NCBI GenBank assembly: GCA_028711765.1
Contig: JAQTRP010000003.1
Location: forward strand, 1 to 46,604
Length of the DNA: 46,604 nucleotides
Origin: Candidatus Omnitrophota bacterium
GTDB lineage: Bacteria; Omnitrophota; Omnitrophia; Omnitrophales; JAQTRP01
Reading direction: 5' to 3'
The notes under the pieces are model-generated. The model saw nothing but the letters and a program-made list of their open reading frames with translations. It searched no databases and was not told where the DNA came from. A program made the position numbers and the translations under genes. How positions within the stretch are numbered: the stretch's first letter is position 1; every line of letters starts with the position of its first letter. This document shows, piece by piece, positions 15,836 through 35,838 of this stretch.

Positions 15836-17230
15836 TCAAATAAACGGCAGGCTGCTTTCGCCCATCAGGTATTTATCGATATAATATGCCGAGCGCCTGC
15901 CTTCCGAAATAGCCCATACCACCAATGATTGGCCGCGCCTCATATCGCCCGCGGAAAACACCTTCTTAACCGAAGTCATAAATTCCGGGTCCGTCTTTAT
16001 GCTGCCGCGTTCGTCAAATTCAATACCAAGATCGTTGAGCAAACCAGAATGTTCCGGATGTAAAAACCCTATGGCAAGAATGACTAAATCCGCCTCGATT
16101 TCCAGATCGTTCCCCGCCTTGACGCAAGAAAGCTTTTTTACGGCGGCCTTTTCCCCGATAAAGCGCTTTGTTGTTACTTCCCAATGGCGGATACATCCTT
16201 CTTCGTGGCTTGACGTCGTCTTTAACAATGAAGGGTATGCCGGCCAAGGACAGCCGATGCCGCGGCACGCCGGCGGTTTGGGTAGAACTTCAATCTGCAC
16301 GACACAAACCGCTCCCTGGCGATGAGCCATGCCCACACAGTCGGCCCCGGTATCTCCTCCGCCAATCACTACCACCTTTTTAGCTTTGGCGTCTATTAAT
16401 CTGTCCTTCGGAATATTCTCGCCGGCTACGCGCTTGTTTGACTGCGTCAAATAATCCATCGCAAAATATATACCCTTAAACTCTCTTCCTTCTATTTTAA
16501 GATCTCTCGGAACGCGGGCGCCGCCGGCCAGTAAAACCGCGTCAAACTCCGCTAAAAGCTTCTTTGCGGGATAATCTATGCCGACGTCCACGTTAGTTCT
16601 AAAAACAAGGCCTTCCTTCTCCCATATGCTAATCCGTTTATCTATGATGTGTTTCTCGAGCTTAAAATCAGGGATGCCATAACGCAGCATACCTCCGGGC
16701 TTATCATCCCGCTCGAAGACAACCACGCTATGGCCCGCTCTATTAAGGATGCTTGCGCAAGACAAGCCGGCCGGACCCGAGCCGATAACAGCTATTTTCT
16801 TGCCTGTCCTCATTTTTATGCGGCTTGGCTTAATCAATCCGTTCTTGAAACCAAATTCTATTAGGGCAAGCTCATTTTCGCGTATGGTAACGGCATCGTC
16901 ATTTAAACCCAGCACGCACGCGTATTCGCACAACGCCGGACAAATCCTTCCCGTTATCTCCGGTAGGCTGTTTGTGGCTTCCAGCAAAGTAAGCGCCGCC
17001 TCCCACTTGCCGCGGAACATATAATCATTCCATTCGGGGATATAGTTTCCTATCGGGCAGCCCCAATGGCAAAACGGTGTCGCGCAGTCCATGCAGCGCG
17101 ATGCCTGCTCCTCTGACTGCTTCTCGGAACGTAATTTAAAAACATGCTTGAAGTCCAGGACGCGCTCGCAGACCGGTCTATACTGTCCGTCTTGCCTTGC
17201 GACTTTTAAGAAACCTTTCACATCACCCAT
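15836..17230 (-). CDS. gltD: Glutamate synthase small subunit (NADPH) GltD
   Basis: This FAD/NAD(P)H subunit sends electrons to GltB for glutamate formation. The 464-residue product has two N-terminal cysteine groups for 4Fe-4S clusters (CMDCATPFCHWGCPIG and CPALCEYAC). They are followed by an FAD motif (IAVIGSGPAGLSCA), a nucleotide motif (VVVIGGGDTGADC) and a C-terminal FAD contact (FSAGDMRRGQSLVVWA). Its start overlaps the gltB end by 8 bases, as expected for co-translated subunits. Confidence 0.96.
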   Translation of the reverse strand: MGDVKGFLKVARQDGQYRPVCERVLDFKHVFKLRSEKQSEEQASRCMDCATPFCHWGCPIGNYIPEWNDYMFRGKWEAALTLLEATNSLPEITGRICPALCEYACVLGLNDDAVTIRENELALIEFGFKNGLIKPSRIKMRTGKKIAVIGSGPAGLSCASILNRAGHSVVVFERDDKPGGMLRYGIPDFKLEKHIIDKRISIWEKEGLVFRTNVDVGIDYPAKKLLAEFDAVLLAGGARVPRDLKIEGREFKGIYFAMDYLTQSNKRVAGENIPKDRLIDAKAKKVVVIGGGDTGADCVGMAHRQGAVCVVQIEVLPKPPACRGIGCPWPAYPSLLKTTSSHEEGCIRHWEVTTKRFIGEKAAVKKLSCVKAGNDLEIEADLVILAIGFLHPEHSGLLNDLGIEFDERGSIKTDPEFMTSVKKVFSAGDMRRGQSLVVWAISEGRRSAYYIDKYLMGESSLPFI

Positions 17231-20200
17231 CTGACGCCTCCGTTAAATCGAGTTTTTCTTCTATCTTTATCCCTTCTAAGATACGCTTATACTCTATGGG
17301 CACGACTTTAATGAACTTTTTCATTTCTCCGGACATGTTATCGATGATTTTCTTCGCCTTTTCGCTTTTCGTATACTTGAAGTGATTGTGAAGCAAGTTG
17401 TATATCGTATCTTTGTCTTCCTCCTTAACAACCCACAATTCAATCATATCCATATTGCATCTGTCTTTGAATACCTTATCCTCGTCGTACACATATGCTA
17501 TTCCGCCCGACATGCCGGCGGCGAAGTTCCTGCCGGTACGTCCTAAGATAATCACTCTTCCGCCCGTCATATATTCACAACCGTGGTCGCCGACACCCTC
17601 TATAACAGCATGCAGCCCTGAGTTTCTCACGCAAAACCTCTCTCCCGCGACGCCGCATATATACGCCTCGCCCGATATCGCTCCATAGAAAGCGGTATTA
17701 CCTATAATTATGTTTTCGCCGGACTTATAACGCGCCCGCTTATCCGGGTAAATAATAATCTTCCCGCCTGAGATACCCTTTCCCACATAGTCGTTGGCCA
17801 TCCCTTCCAATTCAAGTGTGATACCCTTCGCGAGAAACGCGCCGAAGCTCTGTCCGGCGGTGCCTCTGAACTTACATGTAATGGTATCTTCCAAAAAGAC
17901 ACCGTCGCCGCACCTTCTCAATGCTTCACCGCTCAACATCGCGCCTGTCGTTCTATTTGTGTTATCGATTTCAAGTGAAATTTTCACCGGTTTATTTCCA
18001 TCGAGGGCATCTTTACACATATCTATAAGTGTCTTATCGAGAACGGAATCGAGGCCGCTCTCCTGCTTGGACGTGCAATACCGTCCTACGCCGTCGGGAA
18101 GGTCCGGCCGATAAAGAATTCTGGAATAGTCCATTCCCTGCGCTTTTAAAGGAACTATGTCTTTATTCACTTCGAGCAAATCCGTTCTTCCTATCATCCC
18201 ATCCACCGTTCTTATGCCCAGCCCCGCCATTATTCCGCGGAGTTCCTCGGCCACAAAACGGAAGTAATTCACTATATACTCCGGCCTTCCCTTGAAACGC
18301 TTTTGTAAAATGTCATCCTGCGTAGCCACGCCGACGGAACAGTTATTGAGATGGCAGTGCCTCAACATAACGCAGCCGATTGCAACAAGGACGGCCGTGC
18401 AAAAACCATATTCTTCCGCTCCCAACAAAGCCGCGATCGCGACGTCGCGGCCCGTGCGCATTTGCCCATCGGTTTGTATGCGGACTCTCGAACGCAGATT
18501 ATTAAGCATGAGCGTCTGGTGCGTCTCGGAAAGGCCCAGTTCCCACGGAAGCCCGGCGTATCTTATCGAGCTCTGCGGAGAGGCACCTGTCCCTCCGTCT
18601 CCTCCGGAGATGAGGATCGTATCGGCTCGGCCTTTTGCAACACCCGCCGCGACTGTTCCAACTCCTATCTCCGACACAAGTTTCACGCTTATACGCGCTT
18701 TAGGGTTGGCGTTTTTCAAATCAAATATAAGCTGCGCGAGATCTTCGATGGAATATATGTCGTGATGCGGCGGCGGCGATATTAAAGTAACTCCGGGGGT
18801 CGTATATCTGGTTCGCGCTATCACTTCGTTGACTTTGTGCCCAGGCAATTGGCCGCCCTCGCCCGGCTTCGCCCCCTGCGCGATCTTTATCTGTATCTCA
18901 TCCGCGTTAACAAGGTAATTTATGGTAACCCCGAATCTTCCGGAGGCAACCTGCTTTATCGCGCTTCTCCTTGAGTCCCCGTTAGGCAGAGTTATAAACC
19001 TATTCGGATCCTCGCCGCCCTCGCCGGTATTAGACTTGCCGCCTATCCTGTTCATGGCGATAGCGATTGTCTCGTGCGCGAGCCTCGAGATTGAACCGAA
19101 ACTCATGGCCCCCGTGGCGAAACGTTTCATAATATCCGCGATGCCCTCGACCTCATCGATAGAAACCGGTTCTACTTTTTTGAACTTCAACAGGCTCCTT
19201 AGGGTCGTCGGATTGTCCGACTGGTTGTTTATCATTCCGGCAAATTCCTTATATCTGCCGCAGTCGTTGCCGCGCGCGGCATCCTGTAAAGCCGCTATGC
19301 TTTCGGGATTCCAAAGATGAAATTCTCCGTCTCTTTTCCACTGGTAGATTCCGCCGCTCGTTAAATAGGGCTTCTCGATGTCTCTCTGAAAATAAGCCTC
19401 TTTATGCCTGGCTGTGGCCTCATCCGCTATTTCTTTAAGGCCGGCCCCGCCGATTCGGGATACTGTGCCGGTAAAATATTTTTCTATAAACTCCCGGCTT
19501 AAACCCAGCGCCTCAAATATCTGCGCGCCGCGGTAACTTCTAAGAGTGGATATTCCCATCTTTGACAGTATTTTTAAGATGCCGTCGGTTAACGCCTTGT
19601 TATAGTTTTTCAGCGCGTTTTTAAGATCCGGACGAATCTCGTTTTCTTTTATAAGATATTCGATTGTTTCATAGGCAAGATACGGATTTACGCAATCCGC
19701 GCCGTAACCAAAAAGTAAAGCAAAATGATGCACTTCCCTGGGCTCCGCGCTTTCAACTATTATCGCGACCTGTGAACGTATGGTCTTTTTCACAAGATAA
19801 TGATGAACGGCGCTTGCGGCCAACAGCGACGGCAGGGCGATATTATCTTTATCAACGCCGCGGTCGCTCAATATTATAAAAGAGTACCCCTTCTCAATGG
19901 CGTACTCCGCCTCGAAACAGATCCTCTCCAACGCGCGCAGGAAACCCTCTTCGCCGCTACCCGCGTCAAAAAAAGTGTATATCGTCTTCGCTTTAAAACC
20001 GTTTATCCTGATATCGCATAAGTTCTGGAGCTCTTCATCCGTAAGAATAGGATTTCTTACCCTTAGTTTATGGCTATGCCCGGGGGTCTCCTCTAAAATA
20101 TTCTTTTCGGGGCCTATAAAACTCTCCAGGCTCATAACGAGTTTTTCCCTTATGGAATCTATGGGCGGATTGGTCACCTGCGCAAACAGTTGTTTGAAAT

Positions 20201-21755
20201 AACTATACAGAAGCTGGGGTTTCTTAGACAAAAACGCGTGAGGGGTATCGTTACCCATAGAGCCTATGGGTTCTTTACCTTCTTCCGCCATAGGTTTTAT
20301 GATCGTCTTAAGGTCTTCCCGCGAGTAACCAAAGGCCTTGAGTTGAGATATTATATCCTCGGATCTTTGGCTCTTCACGCCGCCGCCGGTAAGCTTACCG
20401 AGATCTATCATACTCTCGGCATTCCACTTTCCATACGGACGGCTACCGGACACGTTTTTCTTTATCTCAGAATCATGCACTATGCGTCCTAATTCGGTAT
20501 CGATAAAAAAGATCTTGCCCGGCTCAAGCCTGCCGGAAATCTTAATATCCGCCGGGTCTATATCGAGAACCCCAACCTCAGACGCCATCACCACAAAGTT
20601 GTTTCTTGTCACAATGTAACGGGCAGGCCGAAGGCCGTTTCTGTCCAGTACCGCTCCGATACGTCTTCCGTCCGTGAAGGCTATCGCGGCCGGGCCATCC
20701 CATGGTTCCATGAAACAGGCGTGATATTCATAAAAATCCTTAAGCTCCTTGTTCATAAAGTCATTATGCTCCCAGGCTTCCGGAATAAGCATCATCATGG
20801 CGTGCTCAAGAGACCTGCCCGCTAACACTAAAAGCTCAAAGAAGTTATCGATTGTGGCCGAATCGCTTCCTCCTTCGACAATAACCGGTTTCAGTTTCTC
20901 TATATCCGCGCCAAAAAGTTCGCTTGCAAGCAACCGTTCGCGCGCGCTTACCCAATTCACGTTGCCGCGTAAGGTATTTATCTCGCCGTTATGGGCTAAA
21001 AATCTAAAAGGTTGGGCCAGGTCCCAAGTGGGAAAAGTGTTGGTGCTGTAACGCGAATGCACTAAACATAAAGCGCTCGATATGCTTTCGTCCTTAAGAT
21101 CGAGGAAGAAATTCTCCAGTTGATCGGGCATAAGCAGTCCTTTGTAAGAAAATGTGCGGGCAGAGATATTGGTTATATAAAACGATTTCTTTTGTTTTAA
21201 ACCAGACGCGCGGACAGCGCTCTCTACCTGTTTTCTGATAACATAAAGTTTTCTTTCAAAACTCAATTCATCGTTAAGGTCTTTGTTCCTTCCGATAAAA
21301 ATCTGTTCAAAAACAGGCTCGGTGCTTTTAGCGCCTTCGCCGATACCGGAATCATCTATCGGAACGACGCGCCATCCCAGCGTCTTCTGGCCATGTTCGT
21401 TTACAACCTTCTCGAACACTTCTTTGCAAAAGGCGCGCTCTTTGCTGTCTTGGGGCAGAAATATTAGGCCCGTACCGTATGATCCCGGCCGTGGCAGATC
21501 AATTCCGCTGTCCGCGGCCTTTCTCTTTAAAAACTCGTGCGGGGTCTGAATCAAGATCCCCGCGCCGTCGCCAGTTTTAGGATCCGCACCGACTGCTCCG
21601 CGGTGGGCCAAACGATTCAAGACATTGATTCCCTGTTTTACAATAAGATTGGATTTCTCGCCGCTAATATTACAGACAAATCCCACCCCGCAGGAATCGT
21701 GTTCGAATCCCGGATCGTAAAGCCCTCGTTTTGGCGGGAAATGATAATATTTCAT
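17223..21755 (-). CDS. gltB: Glutamate synthase large subunit GltB
   Basis: The product makes two glutamates from glutamine and 2-oxoglutarate. It is about 1,510 residues, the normal size. Domains in order are the class II amidotransferase (nucleophile in HDSCGVGFV after a short propeptide), a central domain, and the FMN synthase domain with IKIAQGAKPGEGGQLPGHKV and the 3Fe-4S site CVMLRHCHLNNCSVG. The C-terminal GXGXG domain follows. I chose the ATG at 21755 because GGAAG precedes it and it shares a base with the TAA of the Fis-like gene; an ATG four codons earlier has a crowded binding site. Confidence 0.96.
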   Translation of the reverse strand: MKYYHFPPKRGLYDPGFEHDSCGVGFVCNISGEKSNLIVKQGINVLNRLAHRGAVGADPKTGDGAGILIQTPHEFLKRKAADSGIDLPRPGSYGTGLIFLPQDSKERAFCKEVFEKVVNEHGQKTLGWRVVPIDDSGIGEGAKSTEPVFEQIFIGRNKDLNDELSFERKLYVIRKQVESAVRASGLKQKKSFYITNISARTFSYKGLLMPDQLENFFLDLKDESISSALCLVHSRYSTNTFPTWDLAQPFRFLAHNGEINTLRGNVNWVSARERLLASELFGADIEKLKPVIVEGGSDSATIDNFFELLVLAGRSLEHAMMMLIPEAWEHNDFMNKELKDFYEYHACFMEPWDGPAAIAFTDGRRIGAVLDRNGLRPARYIVTRNNFVVMASEVGVLDIDPADIKISGRLEPGKIFFIDTELGRIVHDSEIKKNVSGSRPYGKWNAESMIDLGKLTGGGVKSQRSEDIISQLKAFGYSREDLKTIIKPMAEEGKEPIGSMGNDTPHAFLSKKPQLLYSYFKQLFAQVTNPPIDSIREKLVMSLESFIGPEKNILEETPGHSHKLRVRNPILTDEELQNLCDIRINGFKAKTIYTFFDAGSGEEGFLRALERICFEAEYAIEKGYSFIILSDRGVDKDNIALPSLLAASAVHHYLVKKTIRSQVAIIVESAEPREVHHFALLFGYGADCVNPYLAYETIEYLIKENEIRPDLKNALKNYNKALTDGILKILSKMGISTLRSYRGAQIFEALGLSREFIEKYFTGTVSRIGGAGLKEIADEATARHKEAYFQRDIEKPYLTSGGIYQWKRDGEFHLWNPESIAALQDAARGNDCGRYKEFAGMINNQSDNPTTLRSLLKFKKVEPVSIDEVEGIADIMKRFATGAMSFGSISRLAHETIAIAMNRIGGKSNTGEGGEDPNRFITLPNGDSRRSAIKQVASGRFGVTINYLVNADEIQIKIAQGAKPGEGGQLPGHKVNEVIARTRYTTPGVTLISPPPHHDIYSIEDLAQLIFDLKNANPKARISVKLVSEIGVGTVAAGVAKGRADTILISGGDGGTGASPQSSIRYAGLPWELGLSETHQTLMLNNLRSRVRIQTDGQMRTGRDVAIAALLGAEEYGFCTAVLVAIGCVMLRHCHLNNCSVGVATQDDILQKRFKGRPEYIVNYFRFVAEELRGIMAGLGIRTVDGMIGRTDLLEVNKDIVPLKAQGMDYSRILYRPDLPDGVGRYCTSKQESGLDSVLDKTLIDMCKDALDGNKPVKISLEIDNTNRTTGAMLSGEALRRCGDGVFLEDTITCKFRGTAGQSFGAFLAKGITLELEGMANDYVGKGISGGKIIIYPDKRARYKSGENIIIGNTAFYGAISGEAYICGVAGERFCVRNSGLHAVIEGVGDHGCEYMTGGRVIILGRTGRNFAAGMSGGIAYVYDEDKVFKDRCNMDMIELWVVKEEDKDTIYNLLHNHFKYTKSEKAKKIIDNMSGEMKKFIKVVPIEYKRILEGIKIEEKLDLTEASDG

Positions 21756-22009
21756 TAAATCTTCCATTTCTCCGGCCTAATACCGAATTTACTGATTTTC
21801 GCCTTCAAGGTATTGCGATGAATGCCCAAGATTTTCGCCGCCTTCAGCTGATTGCCGAAAGTCCTTTCAAGGGCCTTTTCAATTAGCGGCCTCTCAACAG
21901 CCTCAACAACAGTCTTATATATAACGCTCCTCTCGGCGCTTGCAAACATGTTATCCAGTTCCGTAAACGATACCTCTAAGCGGCTTTTGCTTTTAGCACT
22001 GTCTTTCAC
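21755..22009 (-). CDS. Stand-alone Fis-type helix-turn-helix protein 1
   Basis: The 84-residue protein consists almost entirely of the C-terminal DNA-binding helix-turn-helix found in NtrC-like activators and Fis: PLIEKALERTFGNQLKAAKI followed by LGIHRNTLKAKISKFGI. There is no receiver or AAA+ domain. Its stop overlaps the gltB start, so it is translated with glutamate synthase and is likely a local regulator of nitrogen genes. A paralogue lies upstream of glnA and shares the C-terminal ending pattern (K-W/F-K-I). Confidence 0.85.
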   Translation of the reverse strand: MKDSAKSKSRLEVSFTELDNMFASAERSVIYKTVVEAVERPLIEKALERTFGNQLKAAKILGIHRNTLKAKISKFGIRPEKWKI

Positions 22010-22048
22010 GCTTTTATGCCTGAATTTTGTGCACCCAGTTATAAAAAA

Positions 22049-22774
22049 TTATTTTCCCGCGTTAAAAACTGCAGGCTTCTCTCTTTTATGTCTCGAGTTC
22101 CCAATCATTAATTTGGTCTTTTCTAATATCCCTCTTTTAACCTTATGCTCTCTTTTCTCTTCAATCGCCTTCAGGCACCTATCAAGGTCTTTGTAGCGTA
22201 TTCCGATTTCGCCTTCGTCGGTCTGGCCATCCCAAAGCCCCGCCGTAGGAGGCCTTTTTATTATTTCCTTGGGTATTCCCAACTCTTCTGCTAATTTTCT
22301 TACCTCTGTCTTAAACAATCCTCCCAAAGGCAGAATGTCGCAGCCCCCATCCCCGTGTTTTGTAAAATAACCGATCATGAGCTCGCTTTTATTTCCGGTG
22401 CCGGCGACCAAATAATTCAACGAATTCGCGAAATAATATAAAACCAGCATCCTCAGCCTGGGTTTCAAGTTGGCCCTCGCGAGGTCGTTCGCCTCAGGAT
22501 ATAGACCGCTTAATTTATTAAACGTGCCGGTCAAGTCCACCTTTCTAAGTTTTATATTGAATCTCGCCGCAAATTTCCTTGCCAGCTCCTCGTCTCTGCC
22601 GGAACTTTTGCAGGGAAGGATTAAGCCGAGGACATTATCCCTCAACGTTAACTTCGACAATGCCGCCACTACCGAAGAATCAATCCCTCCGCTTAATCCT
22701 ACGACAACACCTTTCTTGCCGGCGCCCCTAACCTGTCTTTTTATCCAGCCTCCGATATCCTGCGATAAACTCAT
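22049..22774 (-). CDS. nadE: Ammonia-dependent NAD synthetase NadE
   Basis: The product converts nicotinate adenine dinucleotide to NAD using ATP and ammonia. The 241-residue protein has the PP-loop SGGIDSS (residues 28-34) and GTGNKSELMIGYFTKHGDGG. There is no N-terminal glutaminase domain, so it must use free ammonia, which fits its position next to glutamine synthetase. Its ATG overlaps the glnA TGA by 4 bases. Confidence 0.93.
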   Translation of the reverse strand: MSLSQDIGGWIKRQVRGAGKKGVVVGLSGGIDSSVVAALSKLTLRDNVLGLILPCKSSGRDEELARKFAARFNIKLRKVDLTGTFNKLSGLYPEANDLARANLKPRLRMLVLYYFANSLNYLVAGTGNKSELMIGYFTKHGDGGCDILPLGGLFKTEVRKLAEELGIPKEIIKRPPTAGLWDGQTDEGEIGIRYKDLDRCLKAIEEKREHKVKRGILEKTKLMIGNSRHKREKPAVFNAGK

Positions 22775-24102
22775 AAAATAGAAAGATATTTCTCGAGCTC
22801 ATATTGCGGGACCTGAATCCTGTAGTTATCCCACTCCTTCTTCTTCAGCTCAACGAATCTCGGAAATATATGATTTCCGAGTATCCTTCTTACAAGCTCG
22901 CTGTCTTCGGCTATCGAAATCGCGTGCCCCAGGCTGTCCGGAAGCGTTTCGATGCCTTTTTGTTTCCTTTCCGCATCGGTTAAATGATACAGGTTCGTAT
23001 CCATGGGCTTAGGCGCCTTATACTTCTTCTCTATGCCATCTAATCCGGCATGAAGCATGGCTGCAAAGGTGAGATACGGATTGCACGCCGGATCACACGC
23101 CCTGAATTCGCATCTCGTCGCCTTTTCTTTGCCGGGATAATAAAGCGGCACCCTGACAAGCGCACTCCTATTCCGGCGGCTCCACGCCACATATACCGGC
23201 GCTTCGTAGCCGGGCACTAACCTTTTGTACGAGTTTGTTGTCTGCGCGAATATAGCGCATATCTCTCGCGCGTGCTTTAGAAGACCCGCTATATAGCTGT
23301 GCGCGACGTCCGAGAGATAGTCTTCGCTCTTCGCGTCATAGAAAGCATTTTTGCTTCCTTTAAACAGCGATTGATGCGTATGCATGCCCGAGCCGTTTTC
23401 GCCGAAAATAGGCTTCGGCATAAATGTGGCGTACACGCCGAATTTGTTCGCGATCTCTTTTACAACTACCCTGTAGGTTATCACGCTGTCTGCCATCTCT
23501 AACGCGTCTTTGTAGCGCATGTCGACTTCATGCTGGGATGGGGCTACCTCGTGATGGGAATATTCAACGTCTATACCCATCTTTTCAAGGGCTAACACGG
23601 TTTCTCTTCTCAGGTCGCTCGCGACGTCAAGCGTCGTAAGGTCGAAATATCCTCCCTTATCCAGTATCTCCGTGGCTGAATCTCCCTTGAAATAGAAATA
23701 CTCCAACTCGGGCCCTAAATAAAAATGGTCAAATCCCATTTTGCTCGCCCTTTGGAGCGCCTTCTTAAGCACATAGCGCGGGTCGCCTTCATACTGCGTC
23801 TTGTCGGGATTCAATACATCGCATATCATCCTTGCGACCGCCTTCTCGGACGGCCTCCATGGGAGTATCGCAAACGTATCCGGATCGGGCATCGCAATCA
23901 TATCGGATTCCTCTATGTCCTGATATCCGGTGATAGAAGAACCGTCAAACCCCATGCCGTTTTCCAAAGCCCCTTCCAGTTCCTTGTCCGTAATCGCGAA
24001 GCTCTTAACCTGACCTAATATGTCAGTAAACCATAGGCGTATGAATTTTACGTCATTCTCCTTCGCTAATTTTAAAATATCCTGTTTTGTCCTTTTCGCC
24101 AT
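22771..24102 (-). CDS. glnA: Glutamine synthetase type I
   Basis: The product makes glutamine from glutamate, ammonia and ATP. At 443 residues it is the short (alpha) GSI form. Key motifs are GFDGSSITGYQDIEESDM, HHEVAPSQHEVDMRY, the ATP-site PKPIFGENGSGMHTHQSLF and RVPLYYPGKEKATRCEFRAC. The window's copy has NLYHLT near residue 375, where the adenylylated Tyr of enteric enzymes would be, but without the surrounding GSI-beta insertion, so adenylylation is doubtful. A strong AAGGAGGAG site precedes the ATG. A long leader with hairpins suggests transcript-level control. Confidence 0.96.
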   Translation of the reverse strand: MAKRTKQDILKLAKENDVKFIRLWFTDILGQVKSFAITDKELEGALENGMGFDGSSITGYQDIEESDMIAMPDPDTFAILPWRPSEKAVARMICDVLNPDKTQYEGDPRYVLKKALQRASKMGFDHFYLGPELEYFYFKGDSATEILDKGGYFDLTTLDVASDLRRETVLALEKMGIDVEYSHHEVAPSQHEVDMRYKDALEMADSVITYRVVVKEIANKFGVYATFMPKPIFGENGSGMHTHQSLFKGSKNAFYDAKSEDYLSDVAHSYIAGLLKHAREICAIFAQTTNSYKRLVPGYEAPVYVAWSRRNRSALVRVPLYYPGKEKATRCEFRACDPACNPYLTFAAMLHAGLDGIEKKYKAPKPMDTNLYHLTDAERKQKGIETLPDSLGHAISIAEDSELVRRILGNHIFPRFVELKKKEWDNYRIQVPQYELEKYLSIL

Positions 24103-24190: not shown

Positions 24191-24236
24191 GATAAAAAGG
24201 GTGTTTTAGCCATCTAAGGCCTTAAAACACCCTTGT
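24191..24236 (-). terminator. Terminator-like hairpin in the glnA leader
   Basis: The 12-base arms 24197-24208 and 24223-24234 pair perfectly and are followed on the minus strand by TTTTTATC. It lies about 90 bases before the glnA ATG, after the 24299-24337 box. It could end transcripts from the upstream gene or act as an attenuator for glnA. Confidence 0.65.
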
Positions 24237-24298
24237 TTTAATATGCCCTTGCACAAACGCTGTGCTTTTATGCTTAGACTTCCAGATTCACTTAAGAT

Positions 24299-24337
24299 AA
24301 GTAAAAAAAACAGCATTTTGGTAACCTGTTTTTTAAT
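24299..24337 (-). promoter_or_regulatory. AGGTTACC box, copy A (upstream of glnA)
   Basis: On the minus strand the site reads A-tract, AGGTTACCAAA, 7-8 variable bases, T-tract and TTACTT. The distance from the TTACTT end to GGTTACC is the same (21 positions) in all three copies. In this copy the flanks AAAAAACAG and CTGTTTTTT form a 9-bp stem. See the linked finding for the alternatives. Confidence 0.55.
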
Positions 24338-24775: not shown

Positions 24776-25537
24776 TTACACCTGCTGATTTGCAGTGAAA
24801 TGGCATCTCCCGCTCCGTTTCGCTTCCGAGGCTTTTATCATCTTGGCGAAGTTCAGAAAAATCCTATCCGCCCTATCGTTAAACTCCCTCTCAATTTTAT
24901 AATAATTGAGCAACATAGACTTTCCGCTAAGTTCCAAAAACGGATCGTCATTCTCGAAATACTTTTTCGTCCAATCTTCAATCATTGAATCATCGACTTC
25001 AATATGAAACTGCAGGCCGTAAGCGTTCTCGCCAAAGCTGAAGGCCTGATTCCTGCAGGAAGCCGAAAAAGCAATGAGCTGACCCTTGTCGGGAATGTCA
25101 AAAGTATCCTGGTGCCATTGGAAAACATCAAATTCCCTCGGCAAAGCGTCAAACAAGGGGTCTACCATTCCATGCCCCGTAAGTGATGCTTTATACCAGC
25201 CGATTTCTTGCTCTTTGGCTCGTCTTACTTCAGCGCCGCACGCCTTGGCTATAAGTTGAGACCCGAGACAGATTCCAAGGAGGGGAATTTGATTTCTTAT
25301 CGCCTTCTTTATGAAAACATCCTCGGCCTTAAGAAAAGGGAAGCTGTCCTCCTCATAAACATTCATGGGGCCGCCTAGAATTATCACGGCATCAATTCGA
25401 GACATATCTTCAGGCAGCCTTCCGCCGCTGTCCAAATTGATAGTCTCAATGCGCCAACTGGTATTTTCAAAGAACCGTCCTATTTTTCCCGGTCCCTCTA
25501 TAGTAACATGTTTGATAATTAATATCATGCGTTTCAC
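24776..25537 (-). CDS. Class I glutamine amidotransferase (GMP-synthase-like)
   Basis: The 253-residue product has a complete class I amidotransferase domain: oxyanion region IILGGPMNVYEED, nucleophile in GICLGSQLIAKACG, and His/Glu in YGLQFHIEVDD. No synthetase domain is attached. Relatives act on small metabolites, for example in gamma-glutamyl turnover, but the substrate cannot be read here. The start is a GTG overlapping the TGA of a possible 35-residue gene, or the ATG at 25528; neither has a good ribosome binding site of its own. It sits between glnK and the second Fis-like gene. Confidence 0.82.
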   Translation of the reverse strand: MKRMILIIKHVTIEGPGKIGRFFENTSWRIETINLDSGGRLPEDMSRIDAVIILGGPMNVYEEDSFPFLKAEDVFIKKAIRNQIPLLGICLGSQLIAKACGAEVRRAKEQEIGWYKASLTGHGMVDPLFDALPREFDVFQWHQDTFDIPDKGQLIAFSASCRNQAFSFGENAYGLQFHIEVDDSMIEDWTKKYFENDDPFLELSGKSMLLNYYKIEREFNDRADRIFLNFAKMIKASEAKRSGRCHFTANQQV

Positions 25538-25657: not shown

Positions 25658-25694
25658 AAGTAAAAAATCGGGGGCTTTGGTAACCTAATTTTTA
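25658..25694 (-). promoter_or_regulatory. AGGTTACC box, copy B (between glnK and amidotransferase)
   Basis: This copy has the same elements as the one before glnA: A-tract, AGGTTACCAAA, variable GCCCCCG, T-tract, TTACTT, with identical spacing. It lies 10-46 bases after the glnK stop and before the possible small membrane protein. The A- and T-tracts can pair as a 6-bp stem. Confidence 0.55.
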
Positions 25695-25703
25695 AACTCT
25701 CTT

Positions 25704-26045
25704 TTAGCCGATCGCCTCATTGCCTCTTTCGCCGGTCCTTATTCTTACACACTGATTAAGGTCTATTACAAATATCTTGCCGTCGCCGATTTTGCCTGTT
25801 TTGGCTCCTTTCACGATTGCTGAAATCGTAGGTTCGACAAAGGCTTCGTTGACCGCAATCTCGAGCCGAACTTTCTTGAGCAAATTTCCTGTTTCCTTTC
25901 TCCCACGGTATACTTCTGTAGCCCCCTTTTGCCTTCCGCAACCAAGCACGTTGCTCACCGTTTTTAAATAAATCTCCTTTTTATCAAGCTCCTGCAGAAC
26001 GTCCTCAAGCTTGTGCGGTTGAATTATTGCTACGATAAGTTTCAT
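25704..26045 (-). CDS. glnK: Nitrogen regulatory protein PII, lacking Tyr51
   Basis: The 113-residue protein is a PII signal protein that binds ATP/ADP and 2-oxoglutarate and typically gates AmtB. It has the family ends ([16 protein letters not shown] and [20 protein letters not shown]). The T-loop contains [14 protein letters not shown] with Tyr46, but residue 51 is Glu, so the uridylylation Tyr51 of enteric PII is missing. Control is thus probably by ligand binding only, or by a different modification. It follows amtB, the classic pairing, and has a good GGAGGG binding site. Confidence 0.95.
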
Positions 26046-26174: not shown

Positions 26175-27410
26175 TTAGTCCAATAACGTGTACGCGCTTT
26201 CTTCATGCTGCGTAATATCAAGGCCCACTACTTCTTCTTCATCTTTGACCCTGAGACCCATTATCAAGTCCAGCACCTTCAGTAAAATAAAGGTAACGAT
26301 AATCGAATAAGCTATCGTGGCCGCTACACCTAATGCCTGCGTCCCCAACTGAGCCGGGTTTCCGAAGAAAAGACCGTTCGCCCCGGCCGGATTTATTATC
26401 TTCTGGGCAAATAGCCCCGTTGCCAAAGCACCGACGGTTCCTCCGACACCATGCACACCAAAGGCATCCAGGCTGTCATCGTACGCAAGTTTCAGCTTTA
26501 TAACCGCAACGGCCGTGTAGCAAACCACAGCCACAATAATGCCTATAAATATCGCGGATATGGGCGAAACAAATCCTGCGGCGGGCGTTATTGCCACAAG
26601 ACCGGCAACTGCACCGGTCGCGCCGCCGAGAATCGTCGGTTTTCCGACAGCTTTCCACTCAACGAACATCCACGTAAGCGCGGCGCTTGCGGCCGCGGTA
26701 TTGGTTGCAATGAAAGCCGACACGGCAAGTTCATTCGCCCCAAGCGCGCTGCCGGCGTTAAATCCAAACCACCCAAACCACAAAAGCGACGCTCCCAATA
26801 TAGTTAAAGGAAGATTATGGGGCGGCATCGGTTCTCTTCCGTAACCGCGTCTCTTGCCAAGCACCAGCGCGCATACCAAAGCGGCGATACCCGAAGATAT
26901 GTGAACCACCGTCCCTCCCGCGAAATCAAGCGCACCTTCAGCCCTAAGCCAGCCGCCGGCACCCCAAACCCAGTGGCAGACAGGATCATAGACGAGAGTC
27001 GCCCAAAGGAGCGTAAAAACAACATAGGTCGAGAATTTCATTCTTTCCGCGAAGGCACCGGTTATCAAAGCGGGCGTAATAACCGCAAACATCATCTGAT
27101 AGACGGCAAAAAGCAGGTGCGGAATCGTAGCCGCGTAATCGGGATTAGGAGCCATCCCGACGCCGTTTAATCCAAACCACGCGAGACTCCCTATAAGGTG
27201 GCCGACATCGGGACCAAAAGACAGGCTGTATCCCCACAGAACCCATTGGATACTCAAAAGGCACAACATAAAGAAAGACTGCATCATTGTAGCAAGAACA
27301 TTCTTTCTTCGCACAAGCCCTCCGTAAAAGAACGCGAGCCCCGGAGCCGTCATTAACATAACGAGCGCCGTCGACATCAGAACCCACGCCGTATCGCCTG
27401 AATTAATCAT
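26175..27410 (-). CDS. amtB: Ammonium transporter AmtB
   Basis: The 411-residue inner-membrane channel takes up ammonium. It has about 11 hydrophobic segments. The Amt signature is present (YDPVCHWVWG, LDFAGGTVVHISSG), as are the pore histidines in VVHISSG and DAFGVHGVGG. I placed the start at the ATG after AAAGGAG and 8 bases, six codons inside the longest frame. Its partner glnK follows, and a TorF-like porin gene precedes it, so the unit may cover both outer- and inner-membrane entry. Confidence 0.96.
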   Translation of the reverse strand: MINSGDTAWVLMSTALVMLMTAPGLAFFYGGLVRRKNVLATMMQSFFMLCLLSIQWVLWGYSLSFGPDVGHLIGSLAWFGLNGVGMAPNPDYAATIPHLLFAVYQMMFAVITPALITGAFAERMKFSTYVVFTLLWATLVYDPVCHWVWGAGGWLRAEGALDFAGGTVVHISSGIAALVCALVLGKRRGYGREPMPPHNLPLTILGASLLWFGWFGFNAGSALGANELAVSAFIATNTAAASAALTWMFVEWKAVGKPTILGGATGAVAGLVAITPAAGFVSPISAIFIGIIVAVVCYTAVAVIKLKLAYDDSLDAFGVHGVGGTVGALATGLFAQKIINPAGANGLFFGNPAQLGTQALGVAATIAYSIIVTFILLKVLDLIMGLRVKDEEEVVGLDITQHEESAYTLLD

Positions 27411-27434
27411 TTTGGTCGCTCCTTTCAACTACAA

Positions 27435-27467: not shown

Positions 27468-28424
27468 TTAAAAATTTATGCTATAACTGAATCCACCGTA
27501 TAATTCATCGTGAGTTATGACATCCTCACTGCCTTCGGGATATGTACGGTGTAACCTTTTCGAATATGACAGAAAAGGTCTGATTGCCATATGCTTGCCG
27601 ATTGGGAAAGGAATCGATCCGCCAAAATCCAACGTCTGTAAAGCTGACCCAGAGATCCACTGGTTTTTGTTGTACCCTAGCTTTGCGTAAGCGCATACCT
27701 TGACTATATTAAAGTCAAGTTCCTCGCAGATACCCCACTCGTACCAGATACCGCGGCCCGCATCGATATCGTTAATTATTGACACATAAGGATGCAAGGG
27801 CCAGTTATACCTTATTGTCCAATAAACTTCCTTGGTGTCGGTATGATATGGCGGGAAATAATAATAAATGTAGCCGGTACTGAAATTAATATCGATCGCC
27901 TTCTTTATAAGATACGGCATCTTCTCTTGCTCGACACCCAAGAGCCCGGCTGCTTTAAGAATATCGAGATTATAATCGAATACAAAATCATACTCGGAAT
28001 TGTCCTTTCCGTTTCCACCCTTGTAATCGTTGGTGATATTGACCCAATAAGTAAAACTGGGATTGCCGAGAGGGCCGAAATCGTGGCCTGACTTAACGTA
28101 GGGTTGCCAAGAAACATTATTGCCTAAGTCCTGGCCTCTCCATATGTACTTATTCGCCAGCGTAAACCCAAGCTCGAAATAAAGGGGCGAGACTTTGCCG
28201 AATTTATCAAGGGTTGTATCCCAATAGGGAATTTCAGGAATACCGAGTTTAATATTTCCCGTGCATTTGCCCATTGTCTTGCCTACGCAGTTGTAACATG
28301 CGCTGTCCACTATTTCAGGATCGAGAAACCTTGGTTTGACAGACTTTGCCTCATCAGCCATAAGCTTTCCCGGAAAACTTAATAGTGACAAAACCAGCAG
28401 TCCTGTTAAACTCCACCTCGGCAT
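27468..28424 (-). CDS. TorF-like outer-membrane porin
   Basis: From the chosen ATG the product has 318 residues, with a signal peptide (LLVLSLLSFPGKLMA). A Cys-containing segment follows (CYNCVGKTMGKC), then beta-barrel-like sequence. YFELGFTLANKYIWRGQDL is the entry motif of the TorF/Gcw_chp putative porin family, and the chain ends in aromatic FSYSINF as outer-membrane barrels do. Its position directly before amtB and glnK suggests it lets ammonium or another nitrogen compound cross the outer membrane; this is inference. The longer frame starting at 28517 covers the terminator and is unlikely. Confidence 0.8.
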   Translation of the reverse strand: MPRWSLTGLLVLSLLSFPGKLMADEAKSVKPRFLDPEIVDSACYNCVGKTMGKCTGNIKLGIPEIPYWDTTLDKFGKVSPLYFELGFTLANKYIWRGQDLGNNVSWQPYVKSGHDFGPLGNPSFTYWVNITNDYKGGNGKDNSEYDFVFDYNLDILKAAGLLGVEQEKMPYLIKKAIDINFSTGYIYYYFPPYHTDTKEVYWTIRYNWPLHPYVSIINDIDAGRGIWYEWGICEELDFNIVKVCAYAKLGYNKNQWISGSALQTLDFGGSIPFPIGKHMAIRPFLSYSKRLHRTYPEGSEDVITHDELYGGFSYSINF

Positions 28425-28450: not shown

Positions 28451-28500
28451 AAAAAAGGCGTCTCCCCCAGAATACCAAAACCAAACCGGGGAGAACGCCC
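28451..28500 (-). terminator. Terminator-like hairpin before the porin gene
   Basis: On the minus strand GGCGTTCTCCCC pairs, with a bulge, with GGGGGAGACGCC, followed by TTTTTTTG. It is preceded by ACAAGG, like the hairpins in front of glnA and the sigma-like gene. It could end sigma-like gene transcripts or attenuate the porin-amtB-glnK unit. Confidence 0.6.
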
Positions 28501-28515
28501 TTGTTCAAATAAGAC

Positions 28516-28552
28516 AAGTAAAAAATCTATGCTTTTGGTAACCTCTTTTTAC
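28516..28552 (-). promoter_or_regulatory. AGGTTACC box, copy C (end of sigma-like gene)
   Basis: The third copy has the same spacing as the other two. It overlaps the final codons of the sigma-like gene (encoding R-L-P-K-A, stop) and precedes the porin gene. GTAAAAA and TTTTTAC can pair as a 7-bp stem. Confidence 0.55.
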
Positions 28553-29042
28553 GCCATTTCTTTATTATCTCCTTCTTGTGCTTTAGGACCATGACATGCG
28601 AAATCCCCAGTTGGCTTGCGGCTTCGCGGACCGTATACCCTTTTAACAGACAAGAAAGCACCGATCTTTCTTTGTCGGTTAGGCCCATGGTTTTTATTTC
28701 ATCAATGGTGATCCTGTTTGCCATGCTCAAACCAGAATCCCCCTTCTTGTCTTCTAAGACATCGCCTAACGTCGGCCCTTCGGGAGTTATGAGTTCATCA
28801 AGACTCGAGAGTATTACCCTCGGCCTTCCTTTTCTTAAGAAATTCTGTATATGGAACTCGCATCCTTTGATCACATAGGATTCGTTTATACCTATCGGAA
28901 GGCCATGCCCATAATGCTGCCACAGATAGAGGCACATCTCCTGATAAAGGTCCTCCTCGTCATAGAGGCTCGTGAGCAAGTGCTTCCGTGCAATGTATTT
29001 AAGCGCCGGCGTTACCTTTTGGAGCAATATTCTAAAATCCAT
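28527..29042 (-). CDS. Small sigma-70-like factor
   Basis: The 171-residue protein resembles the minimal sigma layout. An N-terminal region-2-like segment includes YDEEDLYQEMCLYLWQHY and is followed by a linker. The C-terminal region-4 helix-turn-helix is LTDKERSVLSCLLKGYTVRE followed by AASQLGISHVMVLKHKKEI. It is shorter than group 1-3 sigma factors and resembles ECF or phage-type factors. A GGTGAG site precedes its ATG. It lies upstream of the porin-amtB-glnK genes and behind a consensus promoter with two hairpins in its leader, so it is probably the regulator of this module. Its targets are unknown. Confidence 0.75.
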   Translation of the reverse strand: MDFRILLQKVTPALKYIARKHLLTSLYDEEDLYQEMCLYLWQHYGHGLPIGINESYVIKGCEFHIQNFLRKGRPRVILSSLDELITPEGPTLGDVLEDKKGDSGLSMANRITIDEIKTMGLTDKERSVLSCLLKGYTVREAASQLGISHVMVLKHKKEIIKKWRKKRLPKA

Positions 29043-29058: not shown

Positions 29059-29106
29059 CCTTTATGCACCTAGTACCGCATCCAAGCGGTACCAGGTACA
29101 TAAAGG
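29059..29106. repeat. GTACCTGGTACC-type palindrome, copy 3
   Basis: The 21-base arms are inverted with two mismatches (CCTTTATGCACCTAGTACCGC facing its partner). It lies within 20 bases of the sigma-like start, inside its transcribed leader. Confidence 0.85.
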
Positions 29107-29111
29107 CCGTC

Positions 29112-29166
29112 CTAAAATAAAAAGGGCGTTCGTCCGCCATTACCCCTCGGCGTAGAACGTCCTTGT
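29112..29166 (-). terminator. Second leader hairpin before the sigma-like gene
   Basis: On the minus strand GGACGTTC pairs with GAACGCCC (one mismatch) around a GC-rich inner arm, followed by TTTTTATTTT. It is preceded by ACAAGG and lies downstream of the promoter at 29241-29268. Confidence 0.5.
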
Positions 29167-29170
29167 CCTT

Positions 29171-29199
29171 AAATAAAAAAGGCGTTCTTTCGAACGCCT
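29171..29199 (-). terminator. Intrinsic terminator with GAAA loop
   Basis: On the minus strand AGGCGTTC, GAAA and GAACGCCT form a perfect 8-bp stem followed by TTTTTTATTT. It can end transcripts of glpK and the lipoprotein gene. Because the promoter at 29241-29268 lies upstream of it, it may also attenuate the sigma-like gene. Confidence 0.8.
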
Positions 29200-29240
29200 C
29201 GCTGTTCCTTTTCCTAAGCGCTGCTTTGCACTCATTGATA

Positions 29241-29268
29241 AGTATACCACAAAAAAACTATTCGTCAA
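29241..29268 (-). promoter_or_regulatory. Consensus-like promoter of the sigma-like gene
   Basis: On the minus strand TTGACG and TATACT are separated by 16 bases. The predicted transcript starts near 29234 and runs through two terminator-like hairpins before the sigma-like start at 29042. Confidence 0.65.
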
Positions 29269-29982: not shown

Positions 29983-31473
29983 TCACTCGCCGCACGAGAA
30001 GTGCCGGGCGGCCTCGACGGCGCGCTTCCAGTCCCCGAGCAACCTCCGGCGTTTTTCGCGCCCCATACGCGGGGAGAATTTCGCGCGCATCCGCCAGTTA
30101 TCCCGTATCTCTTCCTTGTTTTTCCAATAACCGCACTGGAGACCCGCCAGATACGCCGCGCCAAGCGCTGTTGTCTCGGGGATCGCGGAACAGATAACCG
30201 GTATGCCCAAAATATCCGCCTGAAACTGCATCAGAAACCTGTTAACGGTCGCCCCGCCGTCAACCTTAAGAGTTTTCACCTTATGCCCTACGTCTTCCTC
30301 CACAGCCGCGATTAAATCCCTCGACTGAAACGCGACGCTCTCTAAGGCGGCGCGTACGATGTGCGCCGACGACGAACCGCGCGTGAGTCCTACAATCGTT
30401 CCCCGCACGCTAGAATCCCAATAGGGCGCCCCCAACCCGACAAAAGCGGGAACGAAATAGACACCGCCCGTATCCGGCACCGAGAGCGCGAGGCTCTCGG
30501 AATCGCCGGCTATCTTCAGCATTTTCTGCTGATCCCTCAGCCATTTCACCACGGCGCCGCCGATAAAGACGGAACCCTCAAGGGCGTATTCGATGCCGTC
30601 TCCGAGATCCCACGCAATGGTCGTCAGAAGCCTGTGCTTTGAGAGGACGAATTTCTTTCCGATATTTACCAGCGCGAAACATCCCGTGCCGTAAGTGTTC
30701 TTGGCGCTCCCCACGCTGAAACAAGCCTGCCCGAAAAGAGAGGCCTGCTGGTCGCCCGCGACGCCGCCGACAGCGATATCCTTCCCGAATATTTCGCTTT
30801 TCGTCATACCGAAAAAACCACACGACGGCCTTACGGCCGGCAGGATTTCTTCCGGAATTCCGAAGATATCAAGCAGTTCCTTATCCCACGCCCCTTTTCT
30901 GATATTCAATAACAATGTTCGCGATGCGTTGGTGACGTCGGTCAGGTGCTCACCCGTCAGGTTATATAAAAGCCACGAATCTACTGTGCCGAAACAAATC
31001 TCTCCCCTCTCTGCCCTTTTGCGCAGGCCCCGCACATTGTCCAAGAGCCACTTTACCTTGGTGCCCGAAAAATACGCGTCCAGCAAAAGCCCCGTTTTCC
31101 TGCGGATGATTTCGCCGTAACCCTTTTTCTCAAGCTTCCTGCATATATCCGCTGTCCGCCGGCATTGCCAGACAATCGCGTTATATACCGGCCTGCCTGT
31201 CCTTCTCTCCCACAGGATTGTCGTCTCCCGCTGGTTCGTAATGCCGACAGAGGCGATCTCTTCCGGCCTTACCGACGCCTTTCTCATGGCCGCAACGGCC
31301 ACATCCTTTTGCGTCTTCCATATTTCAAGAGGATTGTGTTCGACCCAGCCGGGTTTTGGGAATATCTGCGTAAATTCTTTTTGGCAGTTGGAAATAACTT
31401 TCCCTTTTTTGTCGAACACAATAGCGCGCGAACTCGTCGTCCCCTGATCGAGCGCCAATATATATTTTTTCAT
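29983..31473 (-). CDS. glpK: Glycerol kinase
   Basis: The product phosphorylates glycerol to sn-glycerol 3-phosphate. The 496-residue FGGY-family protein has the N-terminal phosphate motif ALDQGTTSSRAIVFD, glycerol contacts in TNQRETTILWER, and EGSVFIGGAVVKWLRD. VDGGATVNRFLMQFQADI and GAAYLAGLQCGYW follow. An AGGGA site precedes the ATG. It diverges from the glpA-like operon. Confidence 0.97.
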   Translation of the reverse strand: MKKYILALDQGTTSSRAIVFDKKGKVISNCQKEFTQIFPKPGWVEHNPLEIWKTQKDVAVAAMRKASVRPEEIASVGITNQRETTILWERRTGRPVYNAIVWQCRRTADICRKLEKKGYGEIIRRKTGLLLDAYFSGTKVKWLLDNVRGLRKRAERGEICFGTVDSWLLYNLTGEHLTDVTNASRTLLLNIRKGAWDKELLDIFGIPEEILPAVRPSCGFFGMTKSEIFGKDIAVGGVAGDQQASLFGQACFSVGSAKNTYGTGCFALVNIGKKFVLSKHRLLTTIAWDLGDGIEYALEGSVFIGGAVVKWLRDQQKMLKIAGDSESLALSVPDTGGVYFVPAFVGLGAPYWDSSVRGTIVGLTRGSSSAHIVRAALESVAFQSRDLIAAVEEDVGHKVKTLKVDGGATVNRFLMQFQADILGIPVICSAIPETTALGAAYLAGLQCGYWKNKEEIRDNWRMRAKFSPRMGREKRRRLLGDWKRAVEAARHFSCGE

Positions 31474-31520
31474 GCGCGTTTTCCCTACTTTTGCTTTTCG
31501 CCTTTATGCAACCTTTGTTA

Positions 31521-31574
31521 GTTTTTATGTACCTGGTACCGGATTAATTGGTTCGGTACCAGGTACATAAAAAC
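31521..31574. repeat. GTACCTGGTACC-type palindrome, copy 4
   Basis: Perfect 20-base arms (31521-31540 and 31555-31574) surround a 14-base loop. It lies in the probable 5' leader of glpK. Confidence 0.9.
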
Positions 31575-31596
31575 TGCTTAATGTTTGAAACGGTTT

Positions 31597-31602
31597 ATTA
31601 TA
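31597..31602 (-). promoter_or_regulatory. Possible -10 box of glpK
   Basis: A perfect TATAAT on the minus strand lies about 125 bases before the glpK start. No good -35 box is visible at 16-18 bases, so an activator may be needed. Copy 4 of the palindrome would be in the leader. Confidence 0.35.
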
Positions 31603-31643
31603 ATTCATTCAAGCCGAAGTTTGTATATCTTTCGTAAAGTAAC

Positions 31644-31691
31644 CGATCGTGTACCTGGTACCGTATCCAAGCAGTACCAGGTACACGATCG
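31644..31691. repeat. GTACCTGGTACC-type palindrome, copy 5
   Basis: Perfect 18-base arms (31644-31661 and 31674-31691, outer ends CGATCGTG and CACGATCG) surround a 12-base centre. It lies in the glpK/glpA divergent region. Confidence 0.88.
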
Positions 31692-31711
31692 CAATCTTAC
31701 ACAACACAAAC

Positions 31712-31890
31712 AGCCATGCAGGGCTTCTTTGAAGCAGCTCTCGCAGAGCTTCGGAGCTTGGTTTCCTCCGCCAATAATTGTGGCGGAGGAGTCCGAAGCT
31801 CGAGAGGCAGCCACTCGTCGGCCGCTGGAGCCGACGAAGCCTGCCTCGCCGGCAGGCAGGTGGCGGTGCTGAAAAGAAGCCCTGCGTGGC
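31712..31890. repeat. Nested 180-base palindromic element between glpK and glpA
   Basis: The outer ends GCCATGCAGGGCTTCTTT and AAAGAAGCCCTGCGTGGC are inverted with few mismatches. Inside are AGCTTCGGA/TCCGAAGCT and CCTCCGCC/GGCGGAGG arms and the word GCCGGCAGGCAGG, also seen at 39008. The element is open in several frames on both strands, which explains apparent ORFs there. The rest of 31474-31966 holds two palindromes and the promoters; I see no gene in it. Confidence 0.65.
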
Positions 31891-31904
31891 CACCATTCAA
31901 ATGC

Positions 31905-31932
31905 TTGACTCACGCTTTTTTTCGTTTAGAAT
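31905..31932 (+). promoter_or_regulatory. Promoter of the glpA-like operon
   Basis: TTGACT and TAGAAT are separated by 16 bases, with the predicted start near 31939, about 28 bases before the ATG. It directly follows the nested palindromic element. Confidence 0.6.
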
Positions 31933-31966
31933 TGAGCAAAGAAGCTTTGCCACAAAAGCAGGCCGT

Positions 31967-33430: not shown

Positions 33431-33450
33431 AGAGGAAACGGGGTTTTGAA

Positions 33451-35066: not shown

Positions 35067-35068
35067 CC

Positions 35069-35787: not shown

Positions 35788-35838
35788 CTTTACGTACCTG
35801 GTACCGCATTCAGTTAATCCGGTACCAGGTACGTAAAG
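35788..35838. repeat. GTACCTGGTACC-type palindrome, copy 6
   Basis: Perfect 18-base arms (35788-35805, 35821-35838) surround a 15-base centre. It lies just after glpF and may work as the operon's terminator-like hairpin. Bases 35839-35948 hold decayed half-copies (for example CAGTACATAAAGG). Confidence 0.9.

Follow-up and report, generated by a model that had tools for sequence, protein, structure and literature searches.

The window analysed here, a stretch of 46,604 nts, is one contig (C34) of a Candidatus Omnitrophota MAG of 1.9 Mb, which is distributed over 145 contigs and is 91.64% complete. On the minus strand, a lipoprotein gene is followed by a leader (leader A), the gene of the sigma-like protein P0001, a gene of unknown function, amtB, the P-II gene, an amidotransferase gene, glnA, and the NAD synthase, gltB and gltD-like genes (Table 1). 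A preliminary description, made from sequence alone, had proposed that a consensus promoter runs into two terminators ahead of the sigma-like gene, in the layout of ANTAR-type attenuation of a nitrogen operon. The promoter and both terminators held and were confirmed by conservation. The nitrogen link held as well, the genes behind being those of P-II, amtB, glnA and glutamate synthase, and attenuation of the ANTAR type is supported at the level of sequence, without transcript or binding data.

Table 1. Features of the nitrogen operon and of its leaders (window coordinates).
Feature	Position	Strand	Basis or remark
DUF4136-like lipoprotein gene	ends 29319	minus	directly upstream of the sigma-gene leader, same strand
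Sigma70-type promoter TTGACG-N16-TATACT, extended -10	29241..29268	minus	pattern; conserved before the gene in relatives
P1 hairpin TGAGTGC[AAAGCA]GCGCTTA	29215..29234	minus	hexaloop with A1 and G4; covariation, RNAalifold
P2-like hairpin GAAC[AGCGAGGC]GTTC	29192..29207	minus	overlaps T1 5′ arm
Terminator T1, 9 bp, GAAA loop, T-run	29170..29200	minus	
Hexaloop hairpin AGGAC[AAGGAC]GTTCT	29154..29169	minus	overlaps T2 5′ arm
Terminator T2 with T-run	29112..29164	minus	
ECF-like sigma factor gene (probable), P0001, 171 aa	28527..29042	minus	TIGR02937, Pfam, structure model
Two-box promoter (putative), leader B	28516..28543	minus	before unknown gene/amtB
Leader B attenuator GAAC[AAGGGC]GTTC overlapping terminator	28454..28506	minus	hairpin at 28502
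Gene of unknown function	27468..28424	minus	without Pfam or NCBIfam match
Ammonium transporter gene amtB	26175..27428	minus	profile match
P-II gene (glnB/glnK)	25704..26045	minus	profile match
Two-box promoter (putative), amidotransferase gene	25658..25685	minus	without convincing attenuator
Class-I glutamine amidotransferase gene	24776..25537	minus	profile match
Two-box promoter (putative), glnA leader C	24299..24326	minus	
glnA (leader C) attenuator: P1 GCAC[AGCGTTT]GTGC, P2 TTAAAAC[AAGGGT]GTTTTAA overlapping terminator	24197..24265	minus	
Glutamine synthetase gene glnA	22771..24102	minus	
NAD synthase, glutamate synthase large subunit (gltB) and gltD-like genes	15836..22774	minus	

Beyond the lipoprotein gene, the plus strand holds FAD oxidoreductase, pyridine-nucleotide oxidoreductase, DUF1667 and aquaporin-type genes (31778-35779), and opposite this cluster an FGGY-type carbohydrate kinase gene (29983-31473, minus strand) was taken by eye as glycerol kinase. 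Subject to that identification by eye, the genes from 29983 to 35779 may resemble a glycerol uptake and oxidation cluster adjoining the nitrogen operon. A REP-like palindrome with a variable centre, TACCTGGTACCG-N12-CGGTACCAGGTA, accounts for 103 pattern matches in forward and 107 in reverse orientation (~105 places) in the 1.9-Mb MAG, with copies at 2216-2251, 29065-29100, 31530-31565, 31650-31685 and 35795-35831. The copy at 29065-29100 lies within the sigma-gene leader, directly before the start codon, and none was seen in those sigma-gene leaders of relatives that were inspected.

The promoter of leader A agrees with the consensus at 10 of 12 positions and has a TG before the -10 box, with transcription expected to start at ~29234. 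Promoter-like sites number 15 in 10 kb, compared with 10.4 +/- 3.3 in shuffled sequence; hence the match taken alone is not beyond chance, and it is conservation in relatives that settles its reality. T1 and T2 correspond to the GAAA-loop terminator and the second hairpin of the preliminary description and held as described: T1 consists of GAGGCGTTC-GAAA-GAACGCCTT at 29200-29179, then TTTTATTT, while the T2 hairpin spans 29164-29122, with TTTATTTT. That description had missed P1 (29234-29215), the A1/G4-loop hairpins that overlap T1 and T2, and the attenuators at 28502 and 24234; the two-box promoter and the sigma cascade discussed below lay outside its reading. In ANTAR targets, loop positions 1 and 4 matter (PMC3369931). 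The features of a two-hairpin target are met in leader A by P1 (29227) together with the hairpins at 29203 and 29164. P1 and the hairpin at T2 have six-nucleotide loops. At T1 the loop of the hairpin is 8 nts long, not a hexaloop, and keeps A1 and G4; a 7-nt P1 loop is found in many relatives. For the 196-nt leader, the folding energy is -81.6 kcal/mol (z -6.8), a value that none of 200 shuffles equalled and that is partly owed to the repeated palindrome at 29065-29100. At gathering thresholds, Rfam found no match in the window.

For comparison, a profile built from P0001 and its ortholog in genome G021 was run against GTDB genomes, the family of P0001 holding no other genome and the G021 ortholog coming from a search of the class. 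It retrieved 28 loci, of which 27, being 44-77% identical, match over nearly the whole protein; the other (L080) matches over a short stretch only and was excluded. These relatives, mostly labelled Candidatus Omnitrophota, have upstream of the gene a sigma70 promoter, P1, a hairpin overlapping T1 and then up to two further attenuators. A sigma70-like promoter found by pattern and followed by one to three terminators is present in 24 of 28 leaders (the window and 27 relatives; L060, L064, L068 and L070 stand outside this tally). Seven of the 24 have one terminator, 11 have two and six have three, and an A1/G4 (AxxG) loop hairpin overlaps the 5′ arm at 37 of their 47 terminators. The compared genomes are related and the counts are not independent.

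The P1 helix was aligned in 23 of the 28 leaders (alignment A4). Over six pairs, 94.2% of cells are paired and five pairs show double changes (21 such cells), giving a covariation score of 0.532, compared with 0.298 after shuffling (0/500) and at most 0.241 for slid versions. The G4 of the loop and the closing C-G pair are invariant in all 23 rows, and loop position 1 is A in 21, with G in L055 and L079. A4 omits L053, L066 and L067, whose AATGAA hairpins have short or bulged stems, L068, in which no P1 was found, and L070, whose contig begins 71 nts ahead. Its rows were picked partly by pairing, and alignment A3 (20 of 28 leaders) was cut around them; a further alignment, A5, holds 18 of 28. 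RNAalifold, applied to a MAFFT alignment of 20 leaders, recovered P1 and T1 unprompted.

The preliminary description had also called for a search of the leader with the two-hairpin ANTAR target model. P1 and the hairpins at T1 and T2 are present, and model R2, built from the leaders of 18 relatives with the window left out, ranks leader A first, both in the window (63.5 bits, E 6.2e-17) and over the whole genome (E 2.6e-15). Second in the genome is the glnA leader (24194-24270, E 0.0029); weaker matches elsewhere (L113, L115, L116) looked like chance. Model R1, built from seven dual hairpins at ANTAR loci of relatives, has its best window matches at 28502 (E 0.0044), 24234 (E 0.017) and 29164 (E 0.021), the next match having an E value of 1.5. 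At these matches only one hairpin per pair fits well. Over 49 genomes of the class, R1 has matches at E <= 0.1 in 13, the strongest being its own seeds, and because several of the weak ones fall in genomes where no ANTAR gene was detected, no claim of co-occurrence is drawn from R1.

A search for ANTAR-domain genes in the genome had been proposed as well. PF03861 is above cut-off in 25 of the 27 relatives' genomes carrying the sigma-like gene (the exceptions being G066 and G071), while the MAG itself was negative, neither PF03861 nor a 60-aa ANTAR stretch revealing an ANTAR gene in this 91.64% complete assembly (best E 0.335). With ~8% of the genome missing, the absence is left undecided, and the neighbours of the ANTAR gene are too variable across relatives to place the missing gene. 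The 60-aa query found ANTAR genes in 16 of 47 genomes of the class without the sigma gene; since the two sets were searched with different queries, the rates are not strictly comparable. A single ANTAR protein per genome was found in 17 of 49 class genomes. In the relatives the protein is a GAF-ANTAR protein, and in three of them (G021, L062, L069) its gene lies directly upstream of the sigma-gene leader.

Two further sets of ANTAR loci were observed. In G074 and G075, GAF-ANTAR genes (L155, with an ANTAR domain confirmed by Pfam, and L156) are preceded by a two-box promoter together with a dual-hairpin attenuator; from these upstream elements it can be inferred, tentatively, that the regulator belongs to its own regulon there. 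At nine loci of Omnitrophota without the sigma gene (L031, L034-L037 and L039-L042), a dual-hairpin attenuator follows the ANTAR gene, and at several the next gene is nirB-like, its translation having been judged by eye. On that judgement, these loci could be read as a plain ANTAR nitrite-assimilation unit.

The nature of P0001 was inferred from profiles and from a predicted fold. The NCBIfam sigma70-ECF profile TIGR02937 covers residues 3-166 (E 4e-11) at 42.8 bits for a cut-off of 42.9, and orthologs of P0001 fall above it (45.6 bits, L053) and below it (38.7 bits, L062). In Pfam, GerE gives the strongest match and is above cut-off, sigma regions 2 and 4 being below theirs. An AlphaFold2 model made with 28 sequences is of moderate confidence (pLDDT 70.3) and predicts a three-helix N-domain and a C-terminal HTH domain, with helices at 3-71 and 113-167 and a linker (75-111) of low confidence; the layout of sigma2 and sigma4 joined by a short linker is thus met in the model. 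Foldseek and VIA-align matched this model mainly to sigma factors (best E 3.8e-4), with Z 9.5 for the sigma-H C-domain and Z 7.4 for the SigE N-domain, which are modest if taken alone. Matches of the sequence profile in the PDB concern the C-domain only and mix sigma factors with LuxR-type regulators. Taken together, profile and fold make it probable, in the absence of biochemistry, that P0001 is an ECF-like sigma factor. Promoters of ECF factors usually have the boxes AAC (-35) and CGT (-10), as derived from a small subset of studied ECFs (PMC8103513). These boxes were not seen in the two-box motif described below, the putative target of P0001, hence the label ECF-like rather than canonical ECF member. 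The gene next to P0001 is the one of unknown function, amtB coming after it; no anti-sigma gene was recognised, no dedicated search having been made, and some ECF factors are reported to be controlled solely through their production (PMC8103513).

The putative target is the motif GGTTACC-N15-TTACTT, with the wider consensus GGTTACCAAAA-N8-TTTTTACTTat. The spacing is 15 at all 39 sites found in the window and the 27 loci, although 8 to 26 nts were allowed, and a reversed-sequence control at those loci gave no match. Genome-wide, 27 of the 28 genomes that carry the sigma gene contain the motif, compared with 3 of 47 that lack the gene. The genes that it precedes include those of glnA, amtB, P-II, glutamine amidotransferases and ANTAR proteins. 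In the sole exception, G051, the sigma-gene copy sits at a contig end; one locus, L068 (G064), is a record identical to G021:C209 and was counted once. The reversed pattern also matches in 3 of the 47 genomes without the gene, which therefore represents background, and the three sites in those genomes have neither a T-run nor an attenuator. In the MAG itself there are three sites (28543, 25685 and 24326), all within this operon.

The 39 sites were drawn from sigma-gene loci and their gene content was partly preset, a bias of which 13 sites of relatives away from the sigma gene are free. These lie before glnA (four), another glutamine synthetase (one), amtB (one), class-II amidotransferase (two), ANTAR (two) and Gcw_chp-type membrane protein genes (two), and one (L158) is chance-like; families were assigned for seven of the proteins and the others were identified by eye. 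The two sites at Gcw_chp-type genes (L151, L153) have attenuator-like hairpins besides the two-box promoter, and the unknown gene of the window may possibly be the counterpart of the gene they precede. The T-run of the motif was considered as an RNA feature and rejected: it lies from 38 nts before to 61 nts after the upstream stop codon, and this variable position indicates a feature of the DNA rather than of the RNA. By protein or by two-box pattern, no relatives were found among viral contigs, and none were found among plasmids.

Attenuators recur behind the two-box promoters. A terminator of >=10 bp lies within 260 nts downstream of 36 of the 39 sites, compared with 196 of 2000 random windows, and an A1/G4 hairpin is associated with the terminator at 21 of 39, compared with 44 of 2000. 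Within the window, a hairpin overlaps the terminator at 29164, 28502 and 24234. In the glnA leader, the loops of P1, which has 7 nts, and of P2 meet the A1/G4 rule for a dual hairpin; in leader B only P2 is present and no P1 hairpin was found. When the window was scanned for terminators overlapped by an A1/G4 hexaloop hairpin, four places were returned, including these three, and shuffled windows reached 0-5, so that position and conservation, rather than the number of hairpins, carry the argument. The site at 25685 was rejected as an attenuated promoter, no good terminator being found there; possibly the gene behind it depends on the sigma factor alone.

Architecture, conservation, covariation, co-occurrence and motif spacing are shown by the sequences. 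They probably reflect a tandem ANTAR-type attenuator that gates a sigma factor of ECF-like type, with the two-box promoter marking its targets and, at most of them, further attenuators behind that promoter, a reading without transcript or binding data. ANTAR binding, antitermination, recognition of the two boxes by P0001 and a signal of nitrogen shortage are inferred. Transcription from the sigma70 promoter (29268-29241) would as a rule stop within the leader, at T1 or T2. When active, an ANTAR protein of the GAF-ANTAR type known from the relatives would bind the AxxG-loop hairpins successively during transcription, in the order P1, the T1-breaking hairpin and the T2-breaking hairpin, and RNA polymerase would then reach the sigma gene (28527-29042). 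In the structural work on EutV and RNA, the smallest ANTAR target is one hexaloop, and hexaloops are bound successively (PMC8934654), which suits the row of hairpins in leader A. The ECF-like product would direct transcription at GGTTACC-N15-TTACTT before the unknown gene and amtB, the amidotransferase gene and glnA, and two of these three transcripts are predicted to begin with further ANTAR-type attenuators. Since two of three would be attenuated again, expression of the nitrogen genes would depend on the sigma factor and the ANTAR signal together, as in a coherent feed-forward AND-gate. Against this proposal stand the lack of an ANTAR gene in the assembly, the 8-nt loop at T1, the absence of P1 from leader B, the site at 25685 without a convincing attenuator, the A1/G4 hairpin rule being met at only 21 of 39 two-box sites, the scores of P0001 below the cut-offs of TIGR02937 and of Pfam sigma regions 2 and 4, the moderate confidence of the structure model, the absence of AAC/CGT boxes from the motif and the relatedness of the compared genomes.

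One alternative, in which T1 and T2 are ordinary terminators of the upstream lipoprotein-like gene and the promoter is a chance match, can draw on the end of that gene at 29319 on the same strand and on promoter-like sites being barely commoner than in shuffles. It appears very unlikely, as the upstream genes vary in relatives (ANTAR, glutamate dehydrogenase and others), yet the promoter, P1 and the terminators are kept, P1 covaries, and T1 and T2 overlap A1/G4 hairpins. It is less readily dismissed, though still unlikely, that the attenuators are real and are run by another RNA-binding factor, or that the ANTAR gene was lost and the leader is a relic. A MAG that is 92% complete and has no ANTAR gene, a leader B without P1 and some deviating loops speak for this view; against it, 25 of the 27 relatives that carry the sigma gene keep ANTAR, which adjoins that gene in G021, L062 and L069, the MAG is in 145 contigs, and the leader is well kept (R2 63.5 bits).

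The two boxes could also be bound by some other regulator, or P0001 could be an activator at a sigma70-like promoter: GGTTACC is nearly palindromic, and the top Pfam match of P0001, GerE, is a LuxR-type HTH. This too seems unlikely in view of the exact spacing, the asymmetric second box, the sigma2 and sigma4 layout of P0001 and the tight co-occurrence of the motif with P0001. A sigma70 -10 box needs an A at position 2, and the second box has no such A, which also speaks against this alternative.

The sigma-cascade reading can be extended into a bolder one, towards which the balance tilts only slightly: a clade-wide nitrogen circuit of Omnitrophota that rests on mutual gating between an ECF-like sigma factor and a GAF-ANTAR protein. 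ANTAR would open the tandem terminators of the sigma gene, and the sigma factor would read the two-box promoters, a new and strictly spaced class, before nitrogen genes; in G074 and G075 it would also drive the ANTAR gene itself. Most sigma-driven transcripts would again need opening by ANTAR, and the tandem hairpins, as successive checkpoints, would give the sigma gene a steeper response. If this is true, an uncultured phylum runs ammonium assimilation through two controls in series, a sigma factor and a gate at the RNA level, instead of the textbook sigma54/NtrC system. It would also provide a predicted sigma-promoter pair that can be tested in vitro without culturing and, in the tandem ANTAR attenuators, a natural set on which the model of successive hexaloop binding can be probed. 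Nitrogen regulons in MAGs could then be annotated by sequence rules that combine GGTTACC-N15-TTACTT, an AxxG hairpin and a terminator. In the literature searched, most subscription journals being outside its scope, no paper joins ANTAR with Omnitrophota, ECF sigma factor, ANTAR and nitrogen together retrieve only the unrelated PMC10149814, and GGTTACC with sigma factor promoter returned nothing relevant by title.

With the known ANTAR attenuators (EutV/eut, NasR/nasF, AmiR/ami, and the nitrogen regulons of Desulfotomaculum and Pelobacter, PMC3369931), the system shares dual A1/G4 hairpins, a second hairpin over an intrinsic terminator, a position before nitrogen genes and several elements per regulon; in D. 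acetoxidans, at least 13 ANTAR elements in six units were described by Ramesh et al. (PMC3369931). Unlike those systems, it is found in Omnitrophota, has tandem terminators behind one P1, has a P2 with an 8-nt loop at T1 in most leaders, and the first gene that would be gated is that of a sigma factor. Similar to ECF sigma factors of the TIGR02937 superfamily, P0001 has ~170 aa and only sigma2 and sigma4, with a linker of <50 residues. It differs from them in having no recognised anti-sigma neighbour, in a sigma70 promoter with attenuators that replaces autoregulation, in a putative promoter, GGTTACC-N15-TTACTT, other than AAC/CGT, and in nitrogen assimilation genes as its presumed targets. 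Classical nitrogen control, by sigma54/NtrC, GlnR or NtcA, governs glnA, amtB and P-II genes, as would be the case here, but the present system would rely on a different sigma class and on a gate at the level of elongation. Hence each part is of a known kind, while the combination, the promoter and the clade seem to be new.
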